Positions 998-63,854 of a DNA stretch of 64,000 nt are shown piece by piece. The stretch covers positions 111,639 to 175,638 of the forward strand of contig NW_024882864.1 of assembly GCF_019059575.1 (NCBI RefSeq), in the 5' to 3' direction. Position 1 is the stretch's first letter; every line of letters starts with the position of its first letter. The position numbers and the translations under genes were made by a program. Source of the stretch: Amphibalanus amphitrite. Taxonomy: Eukaryota > Arthropoda > Thecostraca > Balanomorpha > Balanidae. The notes beneath the pieces were generated by a model. The model was not told the DNA's origin, made no database searches, and was given only the letters and a program-made list of their open reading frames with translations.

Positions 998-2242
998 ATA
1001 ACCCTCGCCCGTATTGATTGGTGTTTTGCCAGCCGCGAACCTATAAGGGGGATCCGTTGGACCCCCTTGCCGTTTGGCCCCTGATCGAACTAGAGCTTCG
1101 TAGAAAAAAAAACGAGCGTGCTGCCCGTGACGAGATGAAGCCGATGATCAGTGGCGCGGGAACTATTTTCTGGCTGGGGGGGGGGGGGGCCGCCTGATAT
1201 TTTTCGGTCTCGGTCAAAATAGAGATCAACCTAGGGTACCCCTAAATCTAGTTTTCTCACCGTTTTTAGGCCACTTATTTTTCACCTTTTGCAGTGGCGC
1301 GGGAACTATTTTTTACGGGGGGGAGACTCATCTCACATTTTGTGGAACAGCGTTTATATCCCTAGCATGTGTGCGGCGTTTGCCAGCTTCTAATGTGTAG
1401 GGGGGGGGTCGGTTGGACCCCCCCCCTTGCCGTTTGGCCCCTGATCGAGCTAGAGCTTCGCGGAAAAAACGAGCGTGTTGCCCGTGACGAGAGGAAGCCG
1501 ATGATACCCAATTTTAAGGTCCTAGGTCATTGGTTGACCTTCCAGGTCAGGTCAATGACCCAAAGTCGGGAAAATCGGGACCTGTTAGAAAGTCGTAAAG
1601 TGTGGCTGCTAAGGGGTTTTTCGGGGTGCTGATCACGAATATCGTGTTATTTTTTATCACAGATGATGTCTTGAGGCATTTAGACCAGGTCGGGTCAGGT
1701 CAGGTCAGGTCAACCAGTAGGCGTCGTAACGGGTATTCGTAGTACGTGTCAACCGCCTCTGACAGCTTCGTAACATGTTACGAAGTCACCAAAACTACTT
1801 CGTAAATGTTCAAATGGTTGCTAAATTCGAATCCAGCTCCAAAAACTAGCCTAGAAACATGTAAAACTCGAAAAAGTGACCCGAGGTCACCCGAGGTCAC
1901 CAAAGGTCAATGACCTGACCTGACCTTCAGGTGACCTTGACACACACGGGAATAACATCAAATCACATGTTTGAACGTTTGAAACCACGAAAAGCTTGCA
2001 AACACGCGGCTAGTGCGAGCCGACATACGCGAAATCGCGATTCCGGCCAAACATGGTCTCGGAAAAGAGGTCACAGGTCAAAGGTCATTTGGGTCAGGGT
2101 CATGAAATTTTCAGGGTAGGTGTCAAATTGATCAATGCGAGGGTACTGAAAGTTTCGTCGCGATCGGCCGCTTTTTACGCGAGTTATTCGCGAAAAACCA
2201 TGGGGGGGGTCCATTCGACCCCCCTACACATGCGAGGGATAT
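998..2242. mobile_element. decayed TTAA-family MITE, copy 1
   Basis: The left end reads ATAACCCTCGCCC, close to the TTAACCCTCGCCC end of intact copies. The right end near 2231 reads GCGAGGGATA. Near both ends a G run faces a C run over a few bases (about 1046-1069 and 2202-2226), the hallmark of this family. The interior has repeated GGTCA units (for example 1688-1711 and 1870-1945). Bases 1046-1150 are repeated at about 1400-1505, so the left arm is internally duplicated. No transposase is present. Both outer target sites have drifted from TTAA. Confidence 0.55.
1046..1505. repeat. direct duplication of about 105 bp inside MITE copy 1
   Basis: The block at 1046-1150 (G run, GTTGGACC, C run, then TTGCCGTTTGGCCCCTGATC) recurs at about 1400-1505 with few changes. 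Between them lies sequence shared with a hAT element at about 52580-52640 (shared core CCTAGGGTACCCC). Confidence 0.7.
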
Positions 2243-4559: not shown

Positions 4560-5600
4560 GCGCCCCAGGTTTTCCAGTTTTACGCCCCTGAGGGGTGTTT
4601 GAATATTCCCTTCTAACCTGACTCCAGGGTCACGTAGCGACAAGTGCGGCGGTAGGCGGCTTTCTAAAGAGCGTCGAAAATCATGGAGAAATTACTTCAG
4701 TCATGTTGCAGTTCACACCAAAGCCCACGTCATCATGTTCATCGAAGGAGAAGTTTCGCCTATTTCGACACTCGAGGACATATATAAGCTAAAGCGCTGA
4801 AAGTGGGTTCGATAGCTCTCTAACGCGTGCAATCAGCCATGGGGGGGGGGGGCGTATCGGCCAAACCCGATCATAATTTAAGAAGGCTAGAAAGACGAGA
4901 AAAGCAACAGATAGCTGTAGGATGTTTCAGAATCGTAGAGCCAGAGGTCATTTTTCGATTATGTCATCGCTGAGGTCATTAAAGATGAAATTATGATGAA
5001 ATTATGATAAACACAAAGACAAGATTGCGACGAAAAAATTCATGTTTTTATATTTTCACAAATAATCGTATAACTCGTGAACCAAAGAGCTAAGAGCTTC
5101 GCGAAACAACTCATTCGATAGGCCTTTCAAAACGCTTTCGCTTTTAAGATTTGACCTCAATGCCTCATGCCAATGGTTTGGCAACAGAGCAGAGGGCAAA
5201 ACCATCTAAATAGTCGCATTTTACCAAAATAGTTTTGCTAAGAATTTTTGCAAGAACTTTGGTAAGAAAAAATATGAGACATTTACTTTGTCATCATTCT
5301 CTTGTTAACATGCATCGAATGTTAACCTATAATTTCACATAAAAAGTTCAACTTCTAAATGTGACCGCAGATCGTTAGGTTAGGTTAGGTTAGGTTAGGT
5401 TAGGTTAGGTTAGGTTAGGTTAGGTTAGGTTATTGACAAGTTCATGATGGTCATCAACTGATCCGTATAGATGATTAACACCTTCAAGACAATTTCATTA
5501 CTCTACCTCGTCTCCTATATCAAAAGTAATAGTCGAAAAACTGATGTTGAGCTCTTTTAAAAGCTTTTTGACCTAGCCCGACCATTTGAGTGGCCGCTGG
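4560..5600. mobile_element. strongly decayed TTAA-family MITE inside hAT element (a)
   Basis: Bases 4570-4720 match the left arm of the intact copy at 62721-63854 (shared tract TTCTAAC, then GGGTCACGTAGCGACA or a close variant). Further in lie GAGGTCATTTTT-type half sites near 4945-4980. The ends are too worn to place, and the (TTAGG)n tract lies within it. Confidence 0.45.
5375..5429 (+). repeat. (TTAGG)11 telomere-type repeat
   Basis: Eleven uninterrupted TTAGG units. TTAGG is the ancestral arthropod telomere repeat. The tract is internal, within the hAT element, so it is an interstitial copy and not a chromosome end. Confidence 0.95.
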
Positions 5601-7439: not shown

Positions 7440-8638
7440 TTAACCTTCGCCCTGGTGGGGGGGGGGGCCATTTTGGCCCCCCCCCTGTGGTTTTTCAGCG
7501 ATAACTCAGAAACCACTTGAGTTAGCGCCCTGAAACTTTGTATAGCTGTTTATTCAACATTTTTACATCATGTCCTGTTTTGGGGGGTTCGGGTCAGGTC
7601 AGGTCAGGTCACAAGGTCACCAAAACTGACACCACCTCTAAAAAAGTTCAAAGCTCTCTCAAAGGCACAGCTTTTATCCGATCGATGTAAAATTTACAGT
7701 ACTTGAAGATGTCACCCAGCTCTACAAAATGGCTATCTCGGATTTTTTATAAATGTGACCTAAGGTCAGGTCAGGTCATCGCTGCTCCCCATTATAAGTC
7801 AATGGGAGAATCGAAAAGTAGTTGTTTTTCAGCTAAATCGGGCGTGATTGATCCTATATTTCGTTATTGAAGTGTCTTGGGTCAGCAAATCACAGCCCAT
7901 GTGAAACCATTTGCTTGTGACCTCGCTGAGGTCACGCTAGGTCATCTCCCTGGTCACCAGAGGTCACCAGCGGTTTTTCTGCACTTACTTGTTATTGAAT
8001 AGAGATAGAGACTCCGTTCGACGTTTATCGTGTTTGTCTCGTCAATGCGGATCGAATGATATGCAGCATGACCTATTTCGGTAAGGTCATGACCTTGACC
8101 TGAGGTCAAATTTTCAAAATGACCTTTCGAGGTCAAGCTATATATCATTCGACGCGTCTCGACGAGCCAAGCACGATGGTGCATGAATCGTTTCTCTATT
8201 TTCTCGTGAATGCATGCTATAGTTAAAAACATTTTCAACAAAATTTGCCAAGTTGACCTTGCATGACCTCTGTAGGCCAAACCGTTGAGCTGAGGTCAAA
8301 TCTGACGAACCTTGGCGAAAGAGCTTGAAAAGAGCTATCGATTGCTTTTTTCCGCGGCTCTCTAGCTCTTCTAGTTTCCGAGCTACAGCGGAATATGTCC
8401 GGCAACACCGAAAACACTGAAATTTGACCTATGATGACCTCTAGCGACCTCAATATTGACCTTAGCGAAAAAATGACCGAAATACTTTCGAACGTACTTG
8501 TTATGGGCTTTCGTTTGCTTTTTTCCGCGTCTTCCTAGCCCTCTTCGTTTTCGAGTTAGACGGGGGGGGGTCATTTTGGCCCCCCCCCCCCCCCACCAGG
8601 GCGAAGGTGGCTCAGACCCACACCAGGGCGCGGGTTAA
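7440..8638. mobile_element. TTAA-family MITE, copy 2
   Basis: It begins TTAACCTTCGCCCTGGTGG at 7440 and ends CACCAGGGCGCGGGTTAA at 8638. TTAA is the likely target duplication. Subterminal G run/C run hairpins lie at about 7455-7491 and 8562-8594. The right end carries the inner motif CCAGGGCGAAGGTGG as well as the outer one, so the two ends are unequal. The interior holds many GGTCA units and a perfect AGGTCATGACCT palindrome at 8084-8095. No transposase. TTAA target and C-rich ends fit piggyBac-type mobilisation. Confidence 0.85.
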
Positions 8639-10737: not shown

Positions 10738-11960
10738 GCTAATAGCCCGCGCCGTGCTAGGGGGCGTTATCGCGCTCCCCCTCAGGTTTTTCGCAAATAT
10801 CTGAAAAACGGCTGCGCGCAGCGCCGCCATTTTCAACATACCTTATCATGCATCTTGTTTGCACATGTAAAAATGTCTGACGCGGGTGATGAAAGGTCAG
10901 GTCACCAGGTTATGCCAAGTGACCTAGCCTAAGAAAAAGTTCAAATGCTTACCATTGCTATACCGACTGAACGATTGCTTTGAACCTTTCAGCGATTGAT
11001 GAAAGCAACACTATTCATGAAATGTATATCTCGGAATTTCGATATCTGTGACCTGTCAGGTCAGTTGTGCGACGTCTCTATTAGGTAGGTAGGTATAATT
11101 AAGTCTTTGGGAGAAAACTGAAAGGCATCTCTTTTGGACAAGCGCCATTCTAGACAATATCAAGCATTGGGATACATATAAAATTAACACACTGAATAAG
11201 AACATTGCACCTAGTGTGACCACTCATTATGTCCCAGAGGTCATCCCATGTCATGAAAGGTCCGCAGCAGTTTTTTTTAAATAACTTTTAATAGATTCAA
11301 GCTAGAGCGATAAAAACACCTCAGCTGTGTTCAGCTCGACGATACGCATCGACTGCTATGCAGCATGACCTTTCCCGGTCAGGTCATGACCTTGACCTGA
11401 GGTCAAATTCTCAAAATTACCTTTCATAAGGTCAACCTTTAGTTTGTTCGACGTGTCTCGACGACAGAAACGCAATGCTGGCAAGCGTAGGTAATGTCGA
11501 GACTCTCTTGAGTCAAAAGTTATTGCAGGAAAACATTGTTCGCAAAAAGGCTATTTTTAGAGTCTTTTGCCCTCTGAAGGCTAAGCCGTTGACCTGAGGT
11601 AAAATCTGAGCGCAGCTTGTACAAACACCTTTAAAAGGGCTATCGAATGCGCTTTTCTGCGGCGCTATAGCTCTATTGGTTTCCGAGTTATGTGCCGCTG
11701 CTTCGAAAACGGAAAAATGTTGAAACAGGCAACATTTTACCTTTGATGACCTCTGGTGACCTGACATTCGACCTGACCTAAACAATGACCGTTTTGTTTT
11801 CGTCCTGTTTTTTTTTTACGATCTTTCGAATGCCGCTTATCGCGTGTCACTACGCGGCCCAGGAGCCGAGTTAGACGAGGGAGTGTGCCCCCCCCCCTCC
11901 CCAGCAGGACACGGAAAACTCACGGAACAGGACACGGACCACCAGCACGGCACGGGTTAA
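10738..11960. mobile_element. TTAA-family MITE, copy 3, inside hAT element (c)
   Basis: The right end is GGCACGGGTTAA at 11949-11960. The left end near 10740 is worn (CCCGCGCCGTGC without an intact TTAA). The interior aligns, in the same orientation as copy 2, with GGTCA clusters and the palindrome AGGTCATGACCT at 11381-11392. A block resembling GCGCTATAGCTCTATTGG is shared with copies at 8350 and 62955 (reverse). Confidence 0.75.
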
Positions 11961-13915: not shown

Positions 13916-14582
13916 GTTACGACCGACTCATCATCCAGGAGGTCCTGGATTGGTCTCCACCTTCTAGTCTGCCTCGTCTGGATAACAACCATCCTGCATT
14001 GGAGCGGTGAGATCGCTCCGAGTGGTGGTTAAACATTGAGTCAATCACGTGCTGTTGCAGTGGAGATCCCAATCAGTGACGAGATCCCAATCAGTGACGA
14101 GATCCCCTCAGTAATATCAGTGCTCTGCCTATGGTCTGTTGAGGCACCAGCTTACATGCAGTGTGACTCATCCGTGGTAGCCTGAGTTACAAGGTGTTCA
14201 GTTCAAGTTGGACATATTGGGTTAGTTGGTGCTTGACCAGTTGCAGAGCTAGTGACTGAGCTCGGACAGTTGTGGCAGCTGACCTGAGTCGCGGCAGTGG
14301 TGTTGGGGAGTTAAGGTGGGCTGTGGAAGTTTCTTTAGTGAGGTTGGCTCCGTCGTGGGGTTGGAAGGGGACCTTTTTCAGTTGGGAAAACAGGGTCAGT
14401 GTTCCTGTTGTATAATGTTTGTGTATGTTGTGTAATAACTGTTGTCACTGTCATTCTTTGCTCAAGCTTGGGCATTAGACTGTACTTGAATGATCTTCAC
14501 TCTTATGTTACTATTTCTTGAGCTGATAAGTTTGTTCATTTAAATGAATGTTATTCGAAGCGTGTTAATTTTAGTGCTGATA
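13916..14582 (+). other. untranslated leader of BEL/Pao element 1
   Basis: This lies between the 5' LTR and the gag start. It has a tandem of GAGATCCCAATCAGTGAC at about 14062-14100. No coding frame is seen. RNA packaging and primer sites are expected here from the family but are not identified. Confidence 0.5.
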
Positions 14583-15605
14583 ATGGCTACTAAGGAGGAT
14601 CCTCAGTTGGGAAGTCAGGACCCAGCCCTGGTTAGTCTATCAGGGAGGGGGAGGGAGGACTTATTCAAGCTGAGGGTCTCAGAGTTGCAAGGTCAGCTAG
14701 AGGCAAGAGGTTTGGACAGTACAGGGAAGAAGGCTGAGCTGGTAGATCGCCTTTGTGTTGCCTTGGATCCAGTGAGTTCTCTAACGGGGGTCGTTGCCCC
14801 CGAGGGCGCTGATGGTGGGGATGGGGCCCTTGGGGAGGAACTAAGGGATGGTAGGTCTCAGGGAGGTGTCACTGAGTCTGTTCAGGTTATTGTAGAGAGG
14901 TTAAGACTGATCAGAGAGAAACAGATGATGGATGAAGCACAGTCTAGGATGAGAGCACGTTCAGAACAGATAGACTTGGAGTTAAAACTCATGGAAATCA
15001 CTGGTCGTCAGATAGATGAGTCAGTTTTGAGCTCAGTCAAAGTCACAGTTGGGAGGCAGGAGAGGGCAGATAGTCTCACAGAGGCTGTTGTGTCCCAGAC
15101 ACAACGCGCTCTCCTTCCGCCCTCTGAATTGAAACCATTCTCTGGTGACATATGCGAGTTCAGGTTATTCGTCAGAGCTTTTAAGGCCAGGGTAGAATGT
15201 AGGACTGAGGATGAGAACGAGCGGTTACATTACTTGGACCAATATACTGTGGGGACCCCAAACAAGATAGTGAGGGGGTGCATGTTCTTGGATACAGGTG
15301 GGTACACACGAGCTTTGGCAACGCTCGAGGAGCGGTACGGTAGCCGCCACAGACTTGTTCATGAGTACACTAGGAAGATGAGAGAGTGGCCAAAGGTTCA
15401 GTCTGATGATGTGAAGGGTCTGGATAGGTTTGTGCTATTTCTGAAGGAAGTCGATAGCGCTGTGGCAGACTTGGGCCGCGAGTTTGATCATCCGCAGTTC
15501 ATCAGGGCGATCTTGGGAAAGATGCCTCCTGCTATCCATGATAGGATCTTGCGCCGGTGTGACACGTTCATGGAGCTCGGTGGGAAGACAGCTCGACTGT
15601 CTGAC
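14583..15605 (+). CDS. BEL/Pao 1 Gag with SAP-like and DUF1759 regions (5' part of split gag-pol)
   Basis: I prefer the ATG at 14583 (start MATKED) to the one at 14544, since the 13 extra residues are hydrophobic and unlike known Gag starts; this is a judgement. A SAP-like DNA-binding motif follows early (L-R-V-S-E-L then G-L-D-S-T-G-K-K-A-E-L-V-D-R-L). A charged helical stretch follows, then the region typical of Pao Gag (DUF1759): K-P-F-S-G-D, an aromatic-rich helix and L-E-E-R-Y-G. Gag builds the virus-like particle. At 15605 the coding frame is interrupted by a 1352-bp insertion; the frame runs 29 codons into it and stops at 15692. After the insertion, from 16962, the same frame resumes as Pol, so the ancestor had one fused gag-pol of about 1824 codons. 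An N-terminal SAP motif in a BEL/Pao Gag is a notable variant. Confidence 0.85.
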
Positions 15606-16961
15606 CACGGTTCGTCGGAAGGTCATCTCAGGCTCAAAAGAAACGCTATATACCATTCGAAAGCTGACGGTGAGCTGAATCCAAAAATGTAATTTTTATC
15701 AAAATCGATCGATGGCCTTTTTTCAAAATTGCGTTTTTGTAAAAACTTGATAATTTTTCATTCAACGGGCTGTCCCGGACATTCTTGAAAACATAAACAT
15801 GTATTTTTATGTTCCAGTGAAAGCTGAACACCAAAAGAACAATATTTAGCGAAGCAATATTTCCAAACATTAATATGCGTCTCCCACAGCCGACAATAAG
15901 GCGCAATTACACAGCTCAGTGTCACGATGGACCAAAGTCGGCCTTACAGAAGCGTGAAATGACACTTATCGACTCGCAGACCCGGCGCTCTCGGCCCGCC
16001 TGACCGGCCACGGCAAGGAGGTTCGGCTGTCGTTCTACTAAACGGGCGTCATATTTGTTAGTTTAACGATTCAAGTCGGTACTTGAGTTACTCAGGATAC
16101 ATGAGCAGAAGATTCATTGCTCTGTCATCTTCACATCATGCATTAATTTGCATTTGTTTCTGTCTACTTTGCTCAATTGAGCTTGGTATCATGCCCATAT
16201 AAGGAAAATTGGCCGCGCTGAAATGTCAGAGGTTGCACCGGCCTCAGCTCGGGTGGAATGGGGGTAGCGCCCGGTGGGGCAGGGTAACCTTTGACCGGTC
16301 GCACGGCCGAGCAGCTGTCAACAGTACAGCCTCTGACAGTGAAACCCCGCTCACTTTCCCTGCGCGGGCACTGAGCGCAGCTGGATGGAACAAAACATGT
16401 ATAAGAAAAATGTAAATTAAAGCATGTTTCAAATCAAGCAGAACAATGAATTTTCTTCACAGGTATCCTGAATAACTTTAATAGTGATGTAGACAGTTAA
16501 ACTGACAAATATGACATTTGTTAAGTAGAACGAGAGCCAAACGTTCTTTCCGTGGCTGGTCAGGCGGGCCGAGAGCGCCGGGTCTGCGAGTCGATAAGGG
16601 TCATTTCACGCTTCTGTGTGGCTGACTTTGGTCCATCGTGACACTGAGCTGTGTGATTGCGCCTTATTATCGGCTGTGGGAGACGCATATTAATGTTAGG
16701 AAATATTGCTTCGCTAAATATTGTTCTTTTGGCGTTCAGCTTTCACAGGAACTCGAAAAAACATACTTATTTTTTCCAGAATGCCCGGGACCTATCGTTG
16801 ATTAAAAAATTATAGAGTTTTTACAAAAACGCAATTTTCAAAAAAGGCCATCGATCGATTTGGATAAAAAATACATTTTTAGATTCAGCTCACCGTCAGC
16901 TTTCGAATGGTATATACCGTTTCTTTTGAGCCCGAGATGACCTTCCGACGAACCGTGTGAC
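15602..16961. mobile_element. 1352-bp long-TIR element (15606-16957), 4-bp TSD, unclassified family 'CACGG'
   Basis: The ends are CACGGTTCGTCGGAAGGTCA and its complement. TGAC is duplicated at 15602-15605 and 16958-16961. The inverted repeats extend roughly 450-480 bp inward, so the element can fold into a hairpin with a loop of about 400 bp that is GC-rich at 16205-16390. No transposase frame. A full second copy (40971-42320, opposite middle orientation) and a half copy (35249-35627) exist. CAC-starting ends plus 4-bp duplications occur in Chapaev-type CMC elements; Sola also makes 4-bp duplications. I cannot decide between these. Confidence 0.9.
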
Positions 16962-19900
16962 GTAATTGACGTGCTGGCGACTGAGGTTCGCATGAAATGC
17001 AATCCGCTGTATGGTGACGTAAGGGTGGATGATGTGACGCGCGGCCGTGAGTCCGGTCAGGGTGTGGTTCGGACCCACCGGGTCAGTGCCGCTGCAGCGG
17101 TGAGGCCGGGTCCGCGGCCGTGCCCATTTTGTCGTGGGCCGCATTCCGTCGACAAGTGTGAGCAGTTGCGTCGTCGGTCTGAGCGTGAGCGGTTTCTCTT
17201 CGTGCGCGATGCGGGACTTTGTTTCGGTTGTTTGAGGGGAGGACATTCCGCTCGTTTCTGCCAGCGCCGCCTGTCGTGCGATTCGTGTGGTAGGAATCAT
17301 CCCACCCTGCTGCACCGCAGTCCCAATGACGTGCAGGATGCCTGCATGGTGGCGCCACCTGCGAGGCCGGTGGCAGCGCCGCCCAGCGGCCAAGCTCAGC
17401 CGGCTGGAGGTTCGCGGTCTTCCGTCGTCACTGCTAATGCAAGGGTGGTGACGCGGGAGGGCCGGGCGCGGGTGTTCATGCCGATAGTGGCCGTCAAGGT
17501 ACGTGGTTCAGGTGGCAGAACGGTGCTGTGTAATGCGTTCCTGGATGGGGGGAGCAGTGGCTGCTTTGCTACTGAGGAGCTCGCGGGTAAGTTAAGATTA
17601 CAGCCAGAGCAGACGACCATCTCTGTCGACACCGTGTGTGGTGAGGGGCAGGTTATCAGCTCGTCGGTTTTGGAGGGACTCGAAGTTTCCGCGATCGAGG
17701 GACGTGACTGGCGCTCGCTACCGGTGGTGTTCACGCTGCCCAGATTGCCAGTGAGCGGACAGGACATGTTCTTGGAAGGTGACTTACCTGATTGGCCTCA
17801 TCTGAATGACATCTTTCTCCCGCAGGTCTCTACTTCTGTAGATCTTCTGATAGGGATTAACGCTCCGCACCTGCATGTGGCGGAGGAGGTGAGGGTCCCT
17901 GAGAGCGGTAGCGGACCGCACGCTGTGCGCAGCCCGCTGGGGTGGTACGTCATCGGAGCAGAGTTTCATGAGAGAATTCGCCGATCGCATTCGGTGAATT
18001 TCATTAGAACGAGCAGGAAGGCACAGAGTGATGACACAGGCAACCTGTTCGAGCAGCTGTACGAGCAAGACTTTTCTGGTCTGGACGACGATAGCGTAGG
18101 CTTATCTGTAGAGGACAGGCTGTGGCTGGACCGTGTGAGGGCTACCGTCCGTAAGGACGAGGAGGGACACTTTGAGATAGGTCTCCCTAGGTCTACCGTC
18201 ACGAGTGTCCCGGACAGTCGCCCGGTCGCTGAGAAGCGACTGATGTCGCTGAGGAGGAAGTTGATGGGGGATCCGAGTCTGTTTCAGTCTTACAGGGCCG
18301 TGATGCAATCTTTGGTGACGGATGGCTACGCTGTGAGAGTGCCGCAGAGCGAGCTGACCGTTCCATCAGGTGATGTATGGTACCTGCCGCATCACGCGGT
18401 GGTGACTCCTAGCAAAGTCAGGGTAGTGTTCGATTGTGCAGCGCGTGCGGGTGGAGTTTGTCTGAACGACATTCTTCAGGGTGGTCCCCACCTGGGACAG
18501 CCTCTGAACGCTGTGATCGCCCGGTTCAGGGAAGGTCGCATAGCGTTTACCTGTGACATAGAAGCGATGTATCATAGGGTCCATGTGCCGGCTGGGGACT
18601 GTGACTTGTTCCGTTTTCTGTGGTTTAAGGATGACGATCTGTCCGGTGACGTCGAAGTATGGCGTATGAGGTCACACGTTTTTGGGGCGGTGACGAGCAG
18701 CAGCGTGGCATGCTTGGCAGTGCAGCTTTGTGCCGAGGAGGGGAAAGGTCAGTTCCCTGCTGCTGCTGACGCGTTGCAGCGCAGGACGTACGTTGATGAT
18801 ACGCTGGTGGCTGTAGAGTCTGTCGAGGATGCCGTCTCCCTCGCGCGGGATCTCACAGAACTCTGCCAGACCGGGGCGTTCCATCTAAAGAAGTTTGCTA
18901 GTAACAGTGCTGAGTTCCTGCAGCACATTCCCGAAGATGAGAGGGGAAAGAGTGTCAAGGATCTGAACCTGGCTGAGGGTGCGCTCGGTTCCAATCGTGT
19001 TTTAGGTGTAGAGTGGGATATGGGAGAAGACGTTTTTCGTTTCCATTTTCAGGATAAGGAGACTCCGGTTACCAGGCGCGGAATACTGTCCGCCGTGAGC
19101 GCCATATTCGACCCTTTGGGTTTCTGGGCTCCTGTGACTCTTTCAGCTAAGATGCTCGTGCAGAAGCTCTGCGCGGCATCGCTGGGCTGGGATGAAGCCA
19201 TCCCGCCGGCTCTGGCAGGTGAGTGGGAAAGCTGGATTCGACAAGCTAAGGGACTAGACGGGATGCAACTGCCCCGAGCAGTTTGTGGTCCGAAAGGTAA
19301 GGTGATTTCTACGGAGCTGCACATATTTGTGGACGCCAGTGAGTCCGCGTACTCCGCTGTGGCCTATGTACGCAAGGAGGTCATGACTGGGCCGAGTGAG
19401 GTGGAGGTGTACATTGGTTTCCTGATGGGAAAGTGTCGTTTGGCGCCGCTGCGCTTTGTGACTATCCCGAGGTTGGAGTTGGCGGGTGGTGTCCTGGGCT
19501 GTCAATTGCGTCAGTTCTTGGTTCGTGAGCTGGACACTAAGTTTGACAGGATCCGCATGTGGAGTGACAGCATGGTGGTGCTGTCATGCATCTGCAACAG
19601 GAAGACGAGGTTCAAAACCTACGTGGCGAACCGCCTATCGTACATTCATGGAGCCACTAACGTATCTGACTGGTCTTACGTTCCTTCACGGGATAATCCT
19701 GCTGACGTCGGATCCCGGGGTGCAGAGCCGCATGGTCTTCAGGTGTGGCTACAGGGGCCTCTGTTCCTGCGTCAGGATGAGTCTGGCTGGCCAGAAGAGC
19801 CAGCTGTGCAGTCTGATCTCCCAGTGGCAGAGCTGAAGAAGCCCGTTCCTGTTGCAGCTGTGGTTATCGGTGCGGCGGATTCAAACAGCACCGATGTGCT

Positions 19901-21413
19901 TATCGGGCATTACTCGAGCCTTTTTCGCCTGAAGAAGGCGGTCGCGTGGTTTAGGAAGTTCTTCGATTGTGTCAGATCTGGGGCTTTCAGGCAGGCCGTG
20001 GTGGCCAGGAGGCGAGGACTCCGACCGAGGTCTGTTGGAATCGACTCGCGTCTCACTGTGTTTGATTTGGACGCGGCTGAAGTCGCTATTTTCCGGTTCG
20101 TGCAGACATCGAGCTTCCCTGAGCTGTATCATGACGGTAAAGGGATGGTGACCGTTCCCAAAGGCAGCCCACTGAGTCGTCTGAACGTGGTGGCTCGGGG
20201 GAATGGTTTGTTAGCCGTGGGAGGGCGCCTGAGTAGGTGTCCGGTGAGTCACGACTTCAAGCATCCCGTGCTGCTCCCACGGGATCATCATGTTTCTCAG
20301 TTGGTGATCCGTCAGGCCCACGAGAAAGTGGGACACCAGGGACGGGAGCATACCCTCTGGAAGGTGCGAGAGCGTTTCTGGATCTTGGGAGGAGGATCTG
20401 CAGTTCGAAGTCTGCTGCGTTCTTGTGTGACGTGTAGAAAGTCTAATTCTGCTCCGCAGGTTCAGATGATGGCCGACTTGCCGGAGGACAGGGTTACTCC
20501 GGAGACCCCCGCCTTTTCCTCCATCGGTCTGGACGTGTTCGGGCCAATTATAGTGAAGAGGGGGCGCCTGGAGGTGAAGCGTTACGGGCTGATATGTACG
20601 TGTTTGGTGTCGAGGGCCATCCACTTGGAAGTTCTCCACTCACTGCGGACTGACTCGCTGATAAACGCGCTTCGTCGTGTTGTCGCTCGTAGAGGTCCGA
20701 TTAAAAGAGTCAGAAGCGATATGGGCACTAACATGGTGGGAGCGGACAATGATTTGAAGGCAGAGATATCTCGACTTGATCGAAGGAAGTTGCAACAGGT
20801 AGGACTCGCTGAGGGGATTGAATGGGTGTTTAATCCTCCTTCAGCGTCGCACTTCGGTGGCTGCTGGGAGCGCCATATTAGGACTGTTCGGAAGGTGTGG
20901 AGGTCAATGCCTGTCCAGAGATTAGACGACGAGAGTTTACATACTCTTTTCTGTGAGATAGAGTCTGTGCTGAATAGTCGTCCATTGACGTATGTTTCGA
21001 CCAGCCAGGGTGATGTTGAACCACTCACCCCCAATCATCTCCTGCTCCTGCGGGGATGTGGAGAGGGTGTCGTGGGCCAGTTCACGGCTGACGACTTGTT
21101 GTCCGTCAAAAGATGGAAACAGGTGCAGTACCTGGCAGAGCAGTTTTGGCTGAGGTGGAGGAGAGACTATCTGCCGACTCTCCAGCGGCGACAGCGATGG
21201 GTCCACCGATCCAGGAATGTGGAGCCCGGGGATGTGGTCCTGATTGCAGACGAGGAGGTGCCGAGAGGCCACTGGGCTCTCGGTAGAGTTCTGGAAACCT
21301 ATCCGAGCAGAGACGGATTGGTGAGAAAGGTCCGGCTCAGGACGGGGGGCACGGTACTAACGAGGCCAGTACATAAACTGATAGTTCTGTTATCTGACAG
21401 TGCTCTCCCCTAG
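16962..21413 (+). CDS. BEL/Pao 1 Pol polyprotein (nucleocapsid, protease, RT, RNase H, integrase)
   Basis: This is the continuation of gag-pol after the insertion; it has no ATG of its own at the boundary. Residues are counted from codon 16971. CCHC-like zinc knuckles lie at 51-120. The aspartic protease motif L-D-G-G-S-S at 191-196 departs from the usual D-S/T-G. Reverse transcriptase covers about 465-640 with catalytic D529 and the YVDD box at 607-610. RNase H has F-V-D-A-S near 786, E836, W-S-D-S at 864-867 and N-P-A-D at 909-912. Integrase has the zinc site H1117/H1122/C1152/C1155 and catalytic D1188, D1250 and E1300. The C-terminal DUF5641-like domain covers about 1360-1470. All catalytic residues appear present apart from the odd protease motif. 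The product copies element RNA to DNA and inserts it. The frame is uninterrupted to the stop, consistent with a recent insertion. Confidence 0.95.
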   Translation, partial: VIDVLATEVRMKCNPLYGDVRVDDVTRGRESGQGVVRTHRVSAAAAVRPGPRPCPFCRGPHSVDKCEQLRRRSERERFLFVRDAGLCFGCLRGGHSARFCQRRLSCDSCGRNHPTLLHRSPNDVQDACMVAPPARPVAAPPSGQAQPAGGSRSSVVTANARVVTREGRARVFMPIVAVKVRGSGGRTVLCNAFLDGGSSGCFATEELAGKLRLQPEQTTISVDTVCGEGQVISSSVLEGLEVSAIEGRDWRSLPVVFTLPRLPVSGQDMFLEGDLPDWPHLNDIFLPQVSTSVDLLIGINAPHLHVAEEVRVPESGSGPHAVRSPLGWYVIGAEFHERIRRSHSVNFIRTSRKAQSDDTGNLFEQLYEQDFSGLDDDSVGLSVEDRLWLDRVRATVRKDEEGHFEIGLPRSTVTSVPDSRPVAEKRLMSLRRKLMGDPSLFQSYRAVMQSLVTDGYAVRVPQSELTVPSGDVWYLPHHAVVTPSKVRVVFDCAARAGGVCLNDILQGGPHLGQPLNAVIARFREGRIAFTCDIEAMYHRVHVPAGDCDLFRFLWFKDDDLSGDVEVWRMRSHVFGAVTSSSVACLAVQLCAEEGKGQFPAAADALQRRTYVDDTLVAVESVEDAVSLARDLTELCQTGAFHLKKFASNSAEFLQHIPEDERGKSVKDLNLAEGALGSNRVLGVEWDMGEDVFRFHFQDKETPVTRRGILSAVSAIFDPLGFWAPVTLSAKMLVQKLCAASLGWDEAIPPALAGEWESWIRQAKGLDGMQLPRAVCGPKGKVISTELHIFVDASESAYSAVAYVRKEVMTGPSEVEVYIGFLMGKCRLAPLRFVTIPRLELAGGVLGCQLRQFLVRELDTKFDRIRMWSDSMVVLSCICNRKTRFKTYVANRLSYIHGATNVSDWSYVPSRDNPADVGSRGAEPHGLQVWLQGPLFLRQDESGWPEEPAVQSDLPVAELKKPVPVAAVVIGAADSNSTDVLIGHYSSLFRLKKAVAWFRKFFDCVRSGAFRQAVVARRRGLRPRSVGIDSRLTVFDLDAAEVAIFRFVQTSSFPELYHDGKGMVTVPKGSPLSRLNVVARGNGLLAVGGRLSRCPVSHDFKHPVLLPRDHHVSQLVIRQAHEKVGHQGREHTLWKVRERFWILGGGSAVRSLLRSCVTCRKSNSAPQVQMMADLPEDRVTPETPAFSSIGLDVFGPIIVKRGRLEVKRYGLICTCLVSRAIHLEVLHSLRTDSLINALRRVVARRGPIKRVRSDMGTNMVGADNDLKAEISRLDRRKLQQVGLAEGIEWVFNPPSASHFGGCWERHIRTVRKVWRSMPVQRLDDESLHTLFCEIESVLNSRPLTYVSTSQGDVEPLTPNHLLLLRGCGEGVVGQFTADDLLSVKRWKQVQYLAEQFWLRWRRDYLPTLQRRQRWVHRSRNVEPGDVVLIADEEVPRGHWALGRVLETYPSRDGLVRKVRLRTGGTVLTRPVHKLIVLLSDSALP

Positions 21414-22889: not shown

Positions 22890-23839
22890 TTAACCCTCGC
22901 CCATGTAGGGGGGGGTTGGTGCAACCCCCCCCCCCCTGAGGTTTTTCGGAAATAGTGCAAAAACGGCGGCGCGCAGCGCCGCCAAATTTTGGGTACCTTA
23001 TGGGGCAAACCTTGCGCATCTTTTGATAAAAAAAAATTTGACCGGGTCATGTCAGGTCACGGAGTTATGACGTCACAAAGGGAACAGCCTCCGGCCGGAT
23101 TTTCACAAACTGAGTGCCAACGCCCGAGGTTTCCTGCCGGTGGTACGGACATCGGTTGATGGATCGTGATGAAACTTCCCATGCATGTTGGGGCAAGTAT
23201 TGGCTATCATATGGTATAAGAAACTTGACCGGGTCAGGTCAGGTCACGGAGCTATGACGTCACAAGAGGAACAGCGTCCGGTACTATTTTTGAAAAGCGC
23301 CCGAACCACTATTTTGCTAATTCTTGTCACCTCAATGGGAATATGCAGCAATATTAGCTTCTATAGGGAGCAAATGGACATCCCAAATCCAAAAACACAA
23401 TCAGATTTCAAAAATTTAAATTTTGATTTTTCGAATTTCTGCCGCCGACTGTGACCTTGCCGACTTCCGGCGCTCCCAACGCGCCATTTTTAGAGCCAGG
23501 GAAACGAAATACATACCAAACGATAGAAAATTGATCAAGGAACACGATAGTGAAGGTTTCAAGTCGATATCTCCCACCGTTTTGCCGCAATCGCCGCGGA
23601 AAATTTGAAAAAGTCTATTTTTCCGAAAATTTGACCTTTGACCGGTCAAAAGTAGGTCAAATGTTGACCTAGGACCAAAAAATATACCACCAATCGCGAG
23701 ATCTCGTTGAGAGCAATCCGTTGGTCTTTTCCGCTAAGCTCTACGACGCTCCGTTTTCAAACGCCAAGGGGGGGGTCGCACCACCCCCCCCCCCTGCATG
23801 GGCGAAGGTGGCAGATCGCCGTTTACGGGCGAGGGTTAA
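22890..23839. mobile_element. TTAA-family MITE, copy 4
   Basis: Starts TTAACCCTCGCCCATG at 22890 and ends CGGGCGAGGGTTAA at 23839. G/C-run hairpins lie at 22908-22937 and 23766-23794. The right end has the second inner motif GGGCGAAGGTGGCAGATC, giving the same unequal ends as copies 2 and 8. GGTCA clusters are at 23044-23060, 23228-23247 and 23630-23670. No coding capacity. Confidence 0.9.
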
Positions 23840-25016: not shown

Positions 25017-28000
25017 CTAGGACGACTCTGGATCAGAGACCTCCAAGTCATGGAGCCGCTGCACTGCTCTCGTCTTTCTGCCCCTGCTAGTTTTAACTTC
25101 TGCGGACCTGGAGACACCATCCCTCCCTGGGAACAATTTGGTCACCACGCCCAGGTCCCACTTCATGCGAGGCTGCTTCTCATCTTGTAGAAGCACAACA
25201 GAGCCCTCCGCCAACTTACCTTGCGGTCGAAATTTGCGTACTGAGAGCGGCAAATTTCTGACATATTCCTGACTCCACACGGACCAGAACTTTCGCAGTC
25301 GCTTTTCTCTTACCTGTGACTGAGCTCTCAGCTCATCAGGTCTGACCTCAGACGGGTCCTCCGCCTCTTTGGCCAAAAAGCCTACGCTGTGACCCGTCAG
25401 GAAGTGGTTGGGGGTTAATGGTACTGGATCGTCTGGTGAATCACCAACAAAGGTGAGTGGCCGCGAGTTGACACACCCTTCAATCTCCGTCAGGGCAGTC
25501 TCTAACTCGGCCCTACTGAGGTGTCGCTGGCCCAGGGATTTTTTAAGAGCACTTTTCACGCTACGCACCATGCGCTCGTACTGCCCACCCCACCACGGAG
25601 CGAGGGGGGCAGAAAACTTGAACCTGGGAGCGAGACGCCCGAAATATCGCTGCATCAGCTTCTCAGCAGCCTGGAATGTACGGGCGTTGTCGAGATACAC
25701 AACTGAAGGCACGCCTCTCCTGGCGGCAAATCTGCGAAAAGCCAACATAAAATCATCCAGAGAGAGTGAGTCTACCAACTCTAGGTGTACAGCACGCACC
25801 TGCGAGCAACAAAACAAACAAATGTAAAGCTTCTTGTCAGGACAATCCACAGCAAAGATTGGCCCTGCGAAATCGCACCCACAGACCTGAAACGGCCTGC
25901 TCTGAGTAACTCTGTCTCGAGGGAGAGGGGCGGCGGGCTCACAGCACGGCTGAGAATCCTGCCTGCGGCACGCGTCACATCCCCTCACGACCCGCCGTGC
26001 GATGGTGCGCAGACCCACGATCCAGAACTCTGATCTCACTGCAGTTATCAGAGTTGACACACCAGCATGCTTCATACACAGGTGCTGCTCACGAACAATC
26101 AGGACGGCCAGGTGACCTTTTGGCAAAATCACCGGGTGCTTTTCCTCGTAGGAAAACTCTGACAACTGCAAACGGCCGCGCACACGTAGCAGCCCGTCAT
26201 CGCCGAGAAACGGCGTCAGTCTGTAAATCTGGGAACTTCGGTGCACCGGACTGCCCTGCCTGAGCAGTTTCAGTTCTTCAGGGTAACTGTCCGCCTGCAC
26301 CAAGCGTAACAGCTCCACGCGAGCCGTCGAGAACTCCTCGGCTGAGAGATCTCCCTGACGGCGCTGCGAACTTTGTCTCACGTTGTGAACAAATCTCAAG
26401 ATCCAGCCCATGACACGGGTTGCTCGGCTGAGCGTACTGTAGCGTTCCACCTGCAGAAAATCGGATGTGTTACCCGCTGCTACACTCGCCGCCGTGAAAA
26501 CGCCAACATTGTCACAAACAATTGACTCTGGTAGGGAATCCAGAGAATCAGCCTCTTTCTGACCATCAGTGTCAAGGTCCTGTCCCTGGTCCGGAGTCGA
26601 ACCCGGCTCTGCGTCTGGTCTCTGCGGGACAGAAGTGCTCTCGGTCATATCCAGACCAACCTCCGGCTCTCGCATCACACTCGGATCACCATCAGCCTCC
26701 CTCAACCAGTCGGGTCCGCTGATCCACACAGGGGATGCCACCAGATCCTCTGCTAACAGGCCGCGTGTCATGAGATCCGCCGGATTTTCGGCTGACCTGC
26801 AGTGCAACCAGTTCTTTGTGTCAGTAAGCCGTTGGATCTCGCTGACCCGGTTGGACACAAACTGCTTCCACCTGCTCGGGTTACCACGTAGCCATCCCAG
26901 AGCAATCATGGAGTCACTCCAGCACCTGTACGGTGTGTCATCAGGCAAGTGCAGTGCCGTACGAACAAACTGCACCAGTTGAGCCGCCAGCACACAGGCC
27001 GAGAGCTCCAAGCGCGGCATCGTGAGCCGCTGACGCAGGGGGGCCACCCTCCCCTTCGACATGACGAAGGAGACGCTGTACGAGTCATCAGGCTGTTTGA
27101 TACGGATGTACACACATGCACCATACGCCTTTGGGGATGCATCAGCAAATACACACAGCTCGAGAGACGGTGCAGCTGACCAGTCTGAAACAGAGTGCAC
27201 TGTGAAACATCGTGGAACCTTCAGATTCTTCAAAATCTGACAACCGTCCAACCACCTGGTGAACACCTCTGCATATTCAGGCGGCAGCTCATCGTCCCAC
27301 TCCAGCTGGAGCTCCCACAGCTCCTGAAACAGGCATTTAGCGACCACACTAAATGGCGTCAAAAATCCCACTGGATCGAAGATCCGCGCCATCATGCTGA
27401 GGACCACACGCTTCGTTGGCACTATGCCAGCAGGCAGCTCGTCTCCTGTGAAAGAGAAAACATCCTCCTCCTTACACCAGGTCACCCCAAGAACTTTCAT
27501 CACACCTTCTGTCGTCACATGTCCCTTTTGACACTTTTCGGCCAGCACAGATGAGTTGCTGTTGCACTTGGACAACTCCATCCCAGCCGCTCTCATAATC
27601 TCACGAGCCTCCTGGAACATCTCCACAGCACCCTGTTCTGTATCCGAGCCTGACAGCAGGTCATCAACATACAGCGACTCTTTCAGTTCGGTGACGACCG
27701 GACTCTCTGGGTACAGCGACAGGTGGTACTTGATGGTGGCGTTCATTAAGAACGGGCTGCAGGCGACACCCATCGTCACCCGCTCGAACCGCATGGTCCG
27801 AATCTGGCCCCCTTGTCTCCATAGGAAGCGATGGGCATCTCGGTCATGTGACGTCAGACGAACCTGATGAAATGCTTTCACAATGTCAGCCGAATACCCG
27901 AACCTCCATCGTCTGAAACGAAGTAACACCTCCAGCAGGTTCGGCATCAGAGAGGGTCCCACATGGACTACATCATTCAAAGAGATACCGTTGGGTCCCT

Positions 28001-30320: not shown

Positions 30321-30762
30321 TGCCACAACTATCAGAAACACAAGTTATGGTCTTCACACATCAAATTAATGGCTCAAAGAAACAAACAAAAGTCCAAGAA
30401 AACAATCATGAAGCTTCAGCAGGTTTAGGATCACTTCTGCTCTCAACGAGGCTTCACCACAGTCACGTGGTCTCAAAACACCAGCCAGAGCAACTGGTCA
30501 ACACGTCCAAAGTTCCGCCAAGGCCAAAACAACTCAAAATGGCCTATCCTTCGAAAGTCGGAACTCGGAACACCAGGCCAGGGCTTCAGAACCTGGGTCA
30601 AGGTCTATCCTCACCAATTACCAGGCTTGACTGATCAACTTTTATCACTCAAACTCTTCAGGGTGACAAAGTCAGCCATCAAATCAGTAGGCTAATAACA
30701 AACAAATGTCACCACCCTTTCAGCTCACAAACACAGCTGAAATCTTCTGGTCACCTCCCGGC

Positions 30763-50027: not shown

Positions 50028-51882
50028 TGAAAGATCAAGGTAGATACCAGCTGCGAGTATTGTTTTCATTGTCGAAAAAAGAATATGAATAATGGCACCG
50101 GCCCATAACTCCCGGTGCATTTTGATGGACCGAAAAAGCGCATGATTTATTGAAAGTTATATCGAGACAAAATAGTTCAGCGCAGATGTCTAATATCAGG
50201 CACACTTTGCAGGCGAAAGGCAATTTCACGTACACAGAGTGAACACTGGGGTCTAGCCACTGTCCACTGGAAGAGAATTGCCTTTTCACAAAACCGGCCC
50301 ATACCTCCCGGGTCTCCCCTATGTAGACGAAGCTCATGAAACACGTTGCAGATTTTTTTATCCGTCACTTCAACAAAAGGAAGTACATTTAAATGGGAAG
50401 TGTAACATTTAACCCGGCAGGCGGTGGGCCTACCAGCCACCTTCCACGCGGTGGGGGGGGGGGCACTTTTTTGCCCCCCCCCGTATCTCCGAAACTACTG
50501 AACGGATCCCGAAAATTCAAACAGCGTTCGATAGCCCTGTCAAATTTGTCGAAGGAAACCAAATTTCATTGACCTCGGGGTCACCGATGACGTCACAGGT
50601 CAGGTCAAAGATAAAATGTTTCACCGTTCACGGGGCTTCTAGGGAAAGCGCTATAACACCGAGTAAAACGCATTTTGTCGAAAATCAGCGATAAGGCGTC
50701 AGTTGTATAGTACATATGTTGCTATTAGAGGTCACTGGTAATACCAGGTCAGGTCACAGGTCAGGTCACCAAAGGTCACCAAGGGTCACCACATGAGCCC
50801 AACTTTACTAAGGTTATGCGATGCATGTTTTATGGCCAGTTTTTCATTTCCAACTCAATGGTGTTGGTTATAAGACCATCAGGTACGGTTTAGGTCACTT
50901 TCTGGTGGAGGTCAGGTCAAGGTCAGGTCAAAAAAGGTCAAATTTCAAAGTTGATATTTTTGCATAAAATGGGTATCGATTCGATGCAGCTCGTCACGGG
51001 GAGTCTAATGGTGGTCTTTGTTTTGCGCTACGAGGTCTAGAATTGCTAAAAATTGAGTTTGAAAATTTGACGTCATCAATTTTGAACAGTTTTTTTCGCT
51101 ATAACTTGGCCAAAAAAGAGGTATCGATCTCAAATTTGGTATGTAGATAGAAGGCGGTAGGGACTATCACATATATTCCGGTTTTTTCGAAATTCAAAAA
51201 AACTTTTTGGATTTTTTGGCTATTATATTTAAAAAATCTATTTTTTGATTGTTGGGGGTCAAAATAAAAAAAAAATGAAAAACCGAAATTGCAGTTTTGT
51301 AGCCCTTTTAATTCCACACCTTTTATGTCTGAAACATTTTTCTGTATCTCTAAAGCTGTAGGCCTGACAGCTCTTCCCGCGAAACCTTTTTTTGGGTCGA
51401 AAATGGCAAAAATGACGTCACTCTGACGTCATTAGCGGCCAACCTATCATAGCCTTTGGAAAAATTTTTGGTCACCATGTGCGCTAGCTGCTCCCGGGAG
51501 GGTACTGAAAGTTTGGTGACGATCGGCGCAGCGGTTCTCGAGATATATCGAAAAAACTAAAGGGGGGGGGGCAAAAAATTGCCCCCCCCCACCGCCTGGA
51601 AGGTTAAGTCATCTTAAAAGGGGCAGATTAATAAATGTGTAAGCGCGTCAAAATTACCAAAACTTAGCACGAGAATTGCTTTTTTCTGCTTATATGTATT
51701 TGGACATCTTTGCCAAGCTCCATATTTGCATATTGCATATATGTTCATGTAGCCTTGGTTTGCACTTTTACGAACTTCATTGCACATTGATATTTATTGC
51801 GCAAAACATTTCAAGTCATTCCATGAATCGAGGCTTACCTACCGCAGCTGAGTTTGTATTTCAAACTATGGCATCTCCAGAC
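50028..51882. repeat. segment Q (interrupted), inverted copy of 60096-60770
   Basis: Bases 50028-50412 and 51604-51882 match 60096-60770 on the opposite strand. The right-hand copy is continuous, giving the empty site of MITE copy 8. Confidence 0.88.
50409..51607. mobile_element. TTAA-family MITE, copy 8 (50413-51603), with verified empty site
   Basis: It starts CCCGGCAGGCGGTGGG after TTAA 50409-50412 and ends CCCACCGCCTGGAAGG before TTAA 51604-51607. The inverted duplicate near 60360-60372 has one TTAA in the same context (ACATTTAAGTCATC), so TTAA is a genuine duplication. G/C-run hairpins lie at 50452-50482 and 51561-51590. GGTCA clusters occur at 50597-50606, 50745-50790 and 50910-50940. 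The left end is bipartite, with a second inner CCACCTTCCACGCGG. Confidence 0.95.
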
Positions 51883-54878: not shown

Positions 54879-55110
54879 ATGTAACGGAAGTTAGCCCACA
54901 TTCAGCCCACATTCGGCAATCGGCCCAGCCCAGATTGGGGCTGCCAAATCTAGGGAAAAATCTAGAAATAAAGGGAAAAATCTAAAAACCGTTTTACGCC
55001 TAAACGGCTTAACGAAACTGACAAATAAGACCACCATTTGAAAGATCTTTTCACCCCGGACCTAATGATATGGTTAAATACCGGATCAATTTAACCAAAA
55101 GCATGATTTA

Positions 55111-59227: not shown

Positions 59228-59465
59228 TGGCTAAATCATGCTTTTGGTTAAATTGATCCGGTATTTAACCATATCATTAGGTCCGGAGTGAAGAGATCTT
59301 TCAAATGGTGGTCTTATTTTTCAGTTTCGTCCAGCCGTTTAGGCGTAAAACGGTTTTTAGATTTTTCCCTAGATTTCTAGATTTTTCCCTAGATTTGGCA
59401 GCCCCAATCTGGGCTGGGCCGAATGTGGGCTGAATGTGGGCTAACTTCCGTTACATCATATAGAA

Positions 59466-62249: not shown

Positions 62250-62724
62250 TTAAAGGGACCCTCCCACCTTAACATTAGTTTTGAGTTGAGATAGCCAAGT
62301 TTGCGGCCAGGCTCAGAAACCACCATTTATCCTGGTCGCAACCCCCGCAGCTTTATGGTGTTCAAGAAATTTCTTCCCTTTACTTGCAGGGTGGGACCAG
62401 CGTGGTCCCTATCTCTTAACCATTACGGGAGTCTGATGACGTCATCAGGCTTTCAAACGTCCGTTAAATGTTTGACTAAAACGTTTTGTAGCACACTGTG
62501 GTATATGCTGCTTTGCGCGCAACAAATGCCGCACTTTCAAATAAAGTCGCTAGGAACAGCGGAAATCCCAAAAAGTAAACAAAAGTAAAAGGCTAATATC
62601 TTGAAAACCGGTGAATATTTTTCGATGAAATTTGGTAGATATTCGTTTCTGCTCTCTCTGAACCGAGCGACATCACTTTCATGCCAATTCATTAACTTTT
62701 TTGAAGGTGGGAGGGTCCCTTTAA
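62250..62724. mobile_element. T2/Kolobok-like MITE (62254-62720), TTAA target
   Basis: The ends are AGGGACCCTCCCACCTT and AAGGTGGGAGGGTCCCT, each bounded by TTAA (62250-62253 and 62721-62724). The TTAAAGG start matches the T2/Kolobok MITE pattern. It differs from the CCC-starting TTAA family next to it. 467 bp, no coding. Confidence 0.85.
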
Positions 62725-63854
62725 CCCGCGCCGGGCCGGGGGGGGTGTCTGTCTGAACACCCCCCCCCCTTCTAACTCGGCTCCTGGGCCACGTAGCGAC
62801 ACGCAGTAAGCGGCAATCGAAATAACGTCCAAAATAAGGACGAAAGCACTTCGGTCATTTTTTGGGTCAGGTCACCAGAGGTCACCAAAAGTAAAATGTT
62901 CACTATTTCAACATTTTGGAAACTGCCAACGGCTATCTCGGGAACCGATAGAGCTACAGCGCCGCGGAAAAGCGCCTTCGATAGCTCTTTCACAGGTCTT
63001 TCTGAGTAATGATCTCAGATTTGATCTCAGGTCAACAGTTTAGCCTCCAGAGGGCAAAAACTCCAAAAATAGCCTTTTTTACGAAAAACGTTTTTTCGGC
63101 AATAACTTTTGACTCAAAAGAGCCAAGACATTACTTTTGCCAGCATCGTGTTCCTCTCGTCGAGACGCGTCGAATGAACTATGATTTGACCTTGAAAGGT
63201 CAACTTGAAAATTTGACCTCAGGTCAAGGTCATGACCTGACGGGAAAAGGTCATGTTGCATATCAGTCGATCCGCAACGTCGAGCCAACACGTCTAAGGC
63301 GTTTTCAGCGCTCTAGCACGCCTCTATCAGAAGTTATTAGCGAAAAACTGTTAGATTCTGTTCGTGACCTGAGATGACCTCGGGGGCATAACGAGGGGTC
63401 ACAGTTGCCATTTTCCGGTTCAGTGTGTCGATGTTATCTACATCTCGATGTTTGAGAGTGTCTAGAATAGCGTTCGTGTAAAACAGACGCTTTTCAATTT
63501 TCTCCCATTGCCTTATGATGGAGAGGCCGCAAATTTGACCTGACCTCAGGTCACCGATATCAAAATTCCGAGATATACATTTGATAGACAATCTTGCTCT
63601 TATCAATCGCTGAAAGTTTCAAGGCAATCGATCATCAGTGTAGCTATGACGAGCATTCTTATTTTTTTCTGAGGTGAGCCGTGAGGTCACTTGGCGTGAC
63701 CTGGTGACCTGACCTAAGGCGACCTGGGTCTGAAATTTTCACATGTGCGGAAAGATGCACGAACAGGTGTGGCGCCGTTTTGAGATATCTGCGAAAAAAA
63801 CCGCAGGGGAGGGTGTTCAAACACCCCCCCCCCCCCTGGCCCGGCGCGGGTTAA
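62721..63854. mobile_element. TTAA-family MITE, copy 9
   Basis: TTAACCCGCGCCGGGCC at 62721 and GGCCCGGCGCGGGTTAA ending at 63854. G/C-run hairpins lie at 62736-62769 and 63807-63836. Palindrome AGGTCATGACCT at 63227-63238, with GGTCA clusters at 62867-62885, 63185-63250, 63536-63553 and 63690-63725. It shares its left TTAA with the neighbouring MITE. Its ends are the best-preserved pair in the window. Confidence 0.93.

Follow-up and report, generated by a model that had tools for sequence, protein, structure and literature searches.

AGGTCA arrays at nucleosome-like steps in non-autonomous piggyBac-superfamily transposons of the barnacle Amphibalanus amphitrite

The window analyzed here is a stretch of 64,000 nucleotides from the barnacle Amphibalanus amphitrite (NCBI RefSeq assembly GCF_019059575.1, contig NW_024882864.1, positions 111,639 to 175,638 of the forward strand). 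Six elements can be delimited in it, and three of them hold the same 12-bp palindrome. They are given below in window coordinates together with their main AGGTCA clusters; features listed without a strand carry no strand assignment.

1356..2242: copy 1, of a ~0.9-kb subfamily, with ATAT flanks, not TTAA, and 17 AGGTCA (counted over 1354-2254)
7440..8638, plus strand: copy 2, a non-autonomous TTAA element of 1199 bp, tips TTAACCTTCGCC / GGCGCGGGTTAA, 25 AGGTCA
7596..7619: first AGGTCA cluster of copy 2, an AGGTC run whose first base is 156 bp in from the left tip
8069..8135: central AGGTCA cluster of copy 2, within the part of the element that is conserved best
8084..8095: AGGTCATGACCT palindrome (IR0), central core of copy 2
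10739..11960 (start approximate), plus strand: copy 3, ~1.2 kb, degenerate left tip TAATAGCCCGCGCC, right tip CGGGTTAA, 16 AGGTCA
11381..11392: AGGTCATGACCT palindrome in copy 3
22890..23839, plus strand: element of 950 bp, from the subfamily that has its right end in common with the transposase-bearing element, 7 AGGTCA
23632..23670: terminal AGGTCA cluster of 22890-23839, 41/42 aligned bp the same as in the cluster of the transposase-bearing element
50409..51607: element of 1199 bp, left tip TTAACCCGGCAGG, right tip CCTGGAAGGTTAA, 15 AGGTCA
62721..63854, minus strand: copy 9, 1134 bp, both tips TTAACCCGCGCC, opposite in orientation to copy 2, 19 AGGTCA
63227..63238: AGGTCATGACCT palindrome in copy 9

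None of the listed open frames of at least 150 codons falls in the six elements. TTAA is at both ends of 4 of the 6, with ATAT at both ends of copy 1 and a degenerate left end on copy 3. The ends of copy 1, ATATCCC...GGGATAT, may represent a non-canonical piggyBac target site or a parallel mutation. Beside the tips, G-runs face C-runs around a short loop (L005, window 7440-7490), making a potential hairpin or G-quadruplex. The central cluster of copy 2 is at the center (~8102) of an imperfect inverted repeat (~150 bp, 68%), and three smaller AGGTCA clusters lie outside the six elements, near 34500, 42530 and 59680. An earlier note on this DNA had described all copies as rich in AGGTCA, which holds for the six delimited elements (7-25 each) but is slightly too strong as worded, because a terminal fragment at 33300-33519 was found to have 0. 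A TTAA element of a second type (62250-62724, tip AGGGACCCTCCCAC) uses as its right TTAA the TTAA of the left tip of copy 9, and contains no AGGTCA. Elsewhere the window has a 278-bp satellite (55107-59235) in two opposed arrays, ~97% identical, that form a large inverted repeat; an inverted repeat whose 375-bp arms match perfectly and are 73 bp apart (43825-44647); and long open frames in opposite orientation at 14544-21413 and 25017-30341, which resemble BEL/Pao-type retroelement polyproteins.

The elements are 0.9-1.2 kb long, their ends read TTAACCC[G/T]CGCC or nearly so, and most of them have TTAA on either side. Members of the piggyBac superfamily have a TTAA target duplication at both tips and terminal inverted repeats that start with CCC, and both the TTAACCCKCGCC tips and the paired terminal repeats start in that way. 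The elements are non-autonomous piggyBac-superfamily transposons with TTAACCCKCGCC tips. Searching the genome (807.55 Mb in 2,644 contigs) found 69,752 exact TTAACCCKCGCC tips, with 117 for the reversed control, and from exact tips alone there would be ~35,000 elements, which, if each is taken as ~1 kb, would make up ~4-5% of the genome. When AGGTCA and G-runs are masked, the elements split into about five sequence groups, mostly linked by short blocks only, and AGGTCA clusters are present in each group.

The earlier note had found a perfect 12-bp palindrome in copies 2, 3 and 9, and all three are exact. With up to one mismatch allowed, AGGTCATGACCT has 3 matches in the window against 0.18 expected, and at least 3 were reached in 0 of 100 dinucleotide shuffles. 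The palindrome is a feature of one subfamily group, being present in 4 of 17 AGGTCA-type elements, 3 of which are the ones already noted. With up to 3 mismatches allowed, its 27-mer context is found at 13,363 places in the genome and the reversed control at none; the 27-mer has 0 exact matches in viral_contigs. Two control 27-mers, one upstream and one downstream, were intended to test whether the palindrome is better conserved than its flanks, and the outcome is mixed: among the matches listed, exact copies on contig C1 favor the palindrome, with 68 against 37 for the upstream and 30 for the downstream flank, but at up to 3 mismatches genome-wide the palindrome 27-mer is intermediate between the upstream (9,651) and downstream (15,255) ones. 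The palindrome falls within the best conserved ~110 bp of the element, in loci that were selected by the 27-mer and hence are biased toward that core.

The window contains 152 AGGTCA against 29.6 expected (~5-fold), with 40 in the highest shuffle, and AGGTCA is second in its hexamer ranking, behind CCCCCC. A 200-kb sample of contig C1, consisting of twenty evenly spaced 10-kb stretches of that single contig and so not random genome-wide, has 513 AGGTCA where first-order composition predicts 88, and none of the 2,080 hexamer pairs has a higher ratio. Across the genome, AGGTCAGGTCA occurs exactly 258,952 times, with 1,178 for the reversed control. Within the C1 sample, 24.6 of the 200 kb are within 600 bp inside a tip (up to 2 mismatches), where AGGTCA density is 11.3 per kb versus 1.34 elsewhere; the remaining excess outside the tip zones suggests inner parts of elements together with further degraded copies.

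Counting the hexamer in the elements themselves against shuffled sequence, as the earlier note had proposed, gives 253 AGGTCA in 17 elements (17,878 bp) compared with 8.7 over 60 rounds of dinucleotide shuffling, a 29-fold excess. That set was hand-picked from 48 rows of a list of paired terminal repeats, 5 elements from the window and 12 from L032-L050; it excludes copy 1, fragments with no clear tips and one overlapping row, and includes W10760 and L044b, which have degenerate left ends, with approximate starts. Eight TTAA elements of different kinds in the same genome, whose tips are AGGGACYNTCCCAC or like it, were hand-picked from the same 48 rows as an internal control and have 2 AGGTCA in 7,002 bp. 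Of the 18 single-base variants, the only ones raised in the 17 elements are ACGTCA at 5.8-fold, GGGTCA at 4.2-fold, CGGTCA at 2.8-fold and, weakly, AGGTCG at 2.1-fold. ACGTCA, or TGACGT on the other strand, is a CRE-like word, and can be seen for example in the element at window 50409-51607.

The half sites are positioned in the elements by a regular scheme. Measured from 45 tips taken at up to one mismatch, AGGTCA per kb is 1.2 at 12-140 bp, 34.9 at 140-210 bp, 2.5 at 210-300 bp and 31.1 at 300-380 bp, with at least one AGGTCA in the first cluster zone for 38 of the 45 tips and in the second for 31. Distances between pairs, in fixed bins, peak at means of 172, 344, 514 and 705 bp (medians 171, 346, 511 and 697 bp), and clusters recur every ~172 bp along the elements, a step that suggests nucleosome linkers. 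Start-to-start distances within clusters favor multiples of ~5.5 bp, a half-turn. As to how two half sites are arranged, a 264-kb sample has the overlapping DR(-1), that is, the 5-bp step of (AGGTC)n, as the commonest form with 101 pairs, and DR4 as the commonest non-overlapping form with 64, followed by 26 for DR5; of the inverted arrangements IR11 has 23 pairs, and IR1 with 10 and IR0 with 4 are rare. The DR4 spacer is GGTC in 22 of the 64 pairs, these being parts of AGGTC runs, and something else in 42, including 23 that are unlike GGTC at all four bases. A telomere-repeat interpretation of the runs, in which (AGGTC)n is read as (TCAGG)n, was dropped since the sites are inside TTAA elements at fixed offsets from the tip; it is also countered by a separate (TTAGG)n tract at window 5374-5432, where about twelve telomere-type repeats lie within the contig.

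Conservation was measured on 21 two-tipped elements, namely two window copies and the 19 of 30 perfect-27-mer loci that have both TTAA tips by the tip rule used, the other 11 loci having failed that rule. They fall into four groups, with 13, 5 and 2 members and a single copy, and the 27-mer and the tips were excluded from the comparison of columns. Motif columns agree at 91-92% for groups 0 to 1, 1 to 0, 0 to 3 and 1 to 3, and at 79-80% for groups 3 to 0 and 3 to 1, compared with 57-61% for non-motif columns in these diverged pairs; in the closer pair of groups 0 and 2, the values are 98-99% for motif columns and 83% for others. Counted as whole motifs, 12-13 of 17-21 are intact in diverged pairs versus 10-14% of control hexamers. 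The earlier note had named half sites no more conserved than their flanks as the finding that would count against it, and what is found is 79-92% in the motif versus 57-61% elsewhere. Its picture of a conserved and enriched AGGTCA in a spreading TTAA family is upheld. Inside the two larger groups, motif columns also depart less often from the majority, with 12/1,287 differences versus 246/12,170 in other columns, and 6/530 versus 163/4,613; this lower rate may reflect hidden sub-lineages and cannot tell selection on transposition from selection in the host.

These figures bear on two explanations that need no transposase. By one, the arrays are passive, the result of (AGGTC)n slippage and expansion of an old ~172-bp tandem repeat, and have no function. 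Among tandem pentamers of the 264-kb sample AGGTC does lead by a wide margin, but half sites kept between subfamilies that are 57-61% identical, and the 23 of 64 DR4 spacers that differ from GGTC at all four bases, and hence are not simple decayed runs, make this explanation very improbable. By the other, the arrays position nucleosomes or act as chromatin elements through a different host factor, perhaps a zinc-finger protein, and the 172-bp phase itself has been selected. The pair distances with medians of 171 and 346 bp and motif-poor gaps between them, the half-turn spacing within clusters, and an element length kept at 1,134-1,202 bp in the 21 elements despite diverged spacer sequence are all in keeping with it. 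The phase may, however, be inherited from one ancestor, and phase alone leaves the exactness of the hexamer unexplained, and we consider this explanation quite unlikely.

The Pfam transposase family DDE_Tnp_1_7 has 116 matches in the genome, many in stop-free open frames, and 12 downstream flanks of 701 bp each, picked to span the score groups, were read. In 2 of the 12, L057 and L058, which are of one lineage, the cysteine-rich tail of the transposase is followed by sequence that matches the right ends of small elements (window 23539-23736, L039 and L044) at 85-90% identity, and this matching sequence contains an AGGTCA cluster, with 5 and 4 GGTCA within 60 bp. The next 120 bp of this lineage (L063) bring the tip GCGAGGGTTAA. 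The C527 and C1173 transposases both have the 3' region common to small elements, the tip being read in C527 only. Compared at its right end, the transposase-bearing element is identical to L044b (which ends at L044:3378) at 210/211 bp from cluster to tip, and at 103/143 inward of the cluster. Against the window element 22890-23839 the values are 41/42 in the cluster, 134/168 outward and 99/143 inward, and against L039 they are 40/42, 131/169 and 102/143, so that in both comparisons conservation is highest in the cluster. The AGGTCA cluster marks the inner edge of the end that small and transposase-bearing elements have in common. No second cluster at ~345 bp is present in the stretch of the transposase-bearing end that was read, and with a single cluster there, the link to the transposase leaves the inner arrays unexplained.

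The tail of this lineage has the pattern CxxC-CxxC-CxxH-CxxC, read directly in L057 and L062, and PMC8086355 gives this as the arrangement in Trichoplusia ni piggyBac. The L057-lineage tail has 15 genome matches, including eight near-identical copies (98-100%) of the cysteine-rich domain (CRD); the L057 CRD/tail fragment had no match in a PDB sequence search and none in Pfam, and in Pfam the L062 tail drew only zf-C5HC2 at E = 0.047, below the cut-off. In the other ten flanks, GGTCA per any 60 bp is at most 1 in eight, and a pair is found in L056 and L062. Four of these flanks (L054, L055, L056 and L060) show a likely ...GGGTTAA tip; in the remaining flanks the tip is out of view and a cluster may lie beyond, so that absence there is weak evidence, and the specificity of the link between transposase and cluster is weak. 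L056 (G000:C221:180310-181010) belongs to a different piggyBac lineage with another tip, ...CACTAATGGGTTAA, and its GGTCA pairs, at ~150 and ~320-350 bp from that tip, faintly echo the same phase. The L062 tail is related to that of L057 (42% identity over 53 residues), and the last part of the flank is a unit similar to the 1.2-kb elements, after which comes AGGTCActgatGGTCA; these are weak matches, the best with E = 1e-4, but possibly implicate L062 as a second partner lineage. Among the transposase flanks read, no partner was found for the palindrome-carrying 1.2-kb subfamily, whose only tie to the transposase-linked subfamily in masked sequence is 67 bp at 81%.

The earlier note had looked to nuclear receptors and had called the inverted repeat with no spacer a known receptor arrangement. 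That is borne out by PMC5494300, in which AGGTCATGACCT is the IR0 element of EcR-USP: in a yeast assay Drosophila EcR-USP was strongly active via ER6, IR0, IR4, DR1, DR4 and DR5, and IR0, in five copies, was the most responsive. Host receptors, either EcR-RXR/USP or an orphan such as FTZ-F1, HR3 or ERR, might bind the arrays, which would act as enhancer or timing elements of the transposon and spread receptor sites as they move. In favor are this response to IR0, DR4 and DR5, the place of DR4 as commonest non-overlapping arrangement with 42 of its 64 pairs outside AGGTC runs, and the precedent of the primate Alu elements, which have dispersed over 100,000 DR2 sites (PMC1785376). TCA directly precedes AGGTCA in 45 of 563 cases with no overlapping upstream copy (DR0 pairs included), which can be counted on the same side, but as an upstream extension it is weak. 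PMC1785376 also writes the nuclear receptor half site as RGKTCA; of its variants AGGTCA is enriched 29-fold in the 17 elements and GGGTCA 4.2-fold, but the receptor-tolerated AGTTCA shows no enrichment (8 versus 9.8 expected, 0.8-fold). Also against receptors, the pair found most often is the overlapping (AGGTC)n, few pairs are IR0 or IR1, and the cluster is common to the transposase-bearing end and bounds it. That the overlap dominates and that AGTTCA is not enriched both speak against receptors having shaped the arrays, and we regard receptor binding as their basis as doubtful. Because IR0 and DR4 are active in the EcR-USP yeast assay, receptor sites in these transposons may well be functional, even if selection never favored this.

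Recognition by the transposase, an alternative that the earlier note had not named, has direct support in the terminal cluster held in common with a transposase-encoding element, and is better supported than receptor function. The mechanism we consider most likely, at somewhat better than even odds, is that each AGGTCA cluster is a docking site for the piggyBac-type transposase that moves these elements, read by the CRD. We infer the binding protein, its AGGTCA-reading domain and the role of the 172-bp spacing as follows. The C-terminal cysteine-rich zinc domain of the transposase would read AGGTCA half sites, and the terminal cluster, ~170 bp from the tip, would be part of the end that the transposase needs. 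Several clusters at ~172-bp steps, near the nucleosome repeat, would keep docking sites in linker DNA, and by their number might raise the local transposase concentration or else titrate the transposase. According to PMC7351741, the piggyBac CRD dimer binds an internal repeat, with CRD sites TGACGCATG and TGACGTACG named; the site spans bp 17-33 counted from the tip, and the dimer binds it as a palindrome. To judge from the letters, TGACGCATG and TGACGTACG resemble TGACCT, and after AGGTCA itself the variant with the highest enrichment in these elements is ACGTCA (= TGACGT). The clusters here differ in being ~170 bp from the tip with direct repeats dominant. Avidity is the usual explanation for subterminal arrays, but one additional site is inhibitory in piggyBat (PMC11707139), so that the inner arrays could either help or titrate. 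An extended version, that the transposase reads the same half site as the host ecdysone or orphan receptors and that hundreds of thousands of receptor-grade sites have thereby been put in linker phase, we think unlikely; if true, it would place transposition, chromatin and moulting-hormone signaling on one DNA code.

It is unusual that a group of related transposons has made one hexamer the most over-represented word where an animal genome was sampled. Should the transposase read AGGTCA, these elements would amount to a natural experiment on arrays of transposase sites at nucleosome-like spacing; should receptors bind as well, hormone-response elements would have been dispersed on a very large scale, which bears on the rewiring of arthropod endocrine control by transposons. 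Literature on AGGTCA with transposable elements and nuclear receptors, on ecdysone receptor with MITEs, and on piggyBac or other DNA transposons in barnacles, offered no prior description in the portions available. What is described here is a set of piggyBac non-autonomous elements with nucleosome-spaced AGGTCA arrays.

The elements are like piggyBac MITEs in having TTAA tips, inverted tips that start with CCC, and a relative with DDE_Tnp_1_7 and a T. ni-type tail that has one end in common with small elements. Their own are the several AGGTCA clusters at ~172-bp steps, the first ~170 bp from the tip, and the G-run/C-run hairpins beside the tips. In alpha satellite, CENP-B boxes set a site read by a transposase-derived protein at ~171-bp spacing; the elements here are dispersed transposons, not a centromeric satellite, and the likeness is an analogy only. 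The subterminal arrays of piggyBat, Tol2, Ac and Tag1 likewise repeat a short motif inside the ends, taken as transposase sites (PMC11707139), but here the motif runs through the whole element at nucleosome-scale spacing and the sites are putative. With the EcR-USP elements of PMC5494300 there is in common the identical 12-bp IR0 and the DR4 arrangement, but the overlapping (AGGTC)n dominates here and the receptor sites are putative. In the Alu DR2 elements too, a mobile element has carried more than 100,000 AGGTCA-type sites through a genome (PMC1785376), there arisen largely via deamination of methylated CpG; the sites here, in contrast, are conserved between subfamilies and set in arrays.
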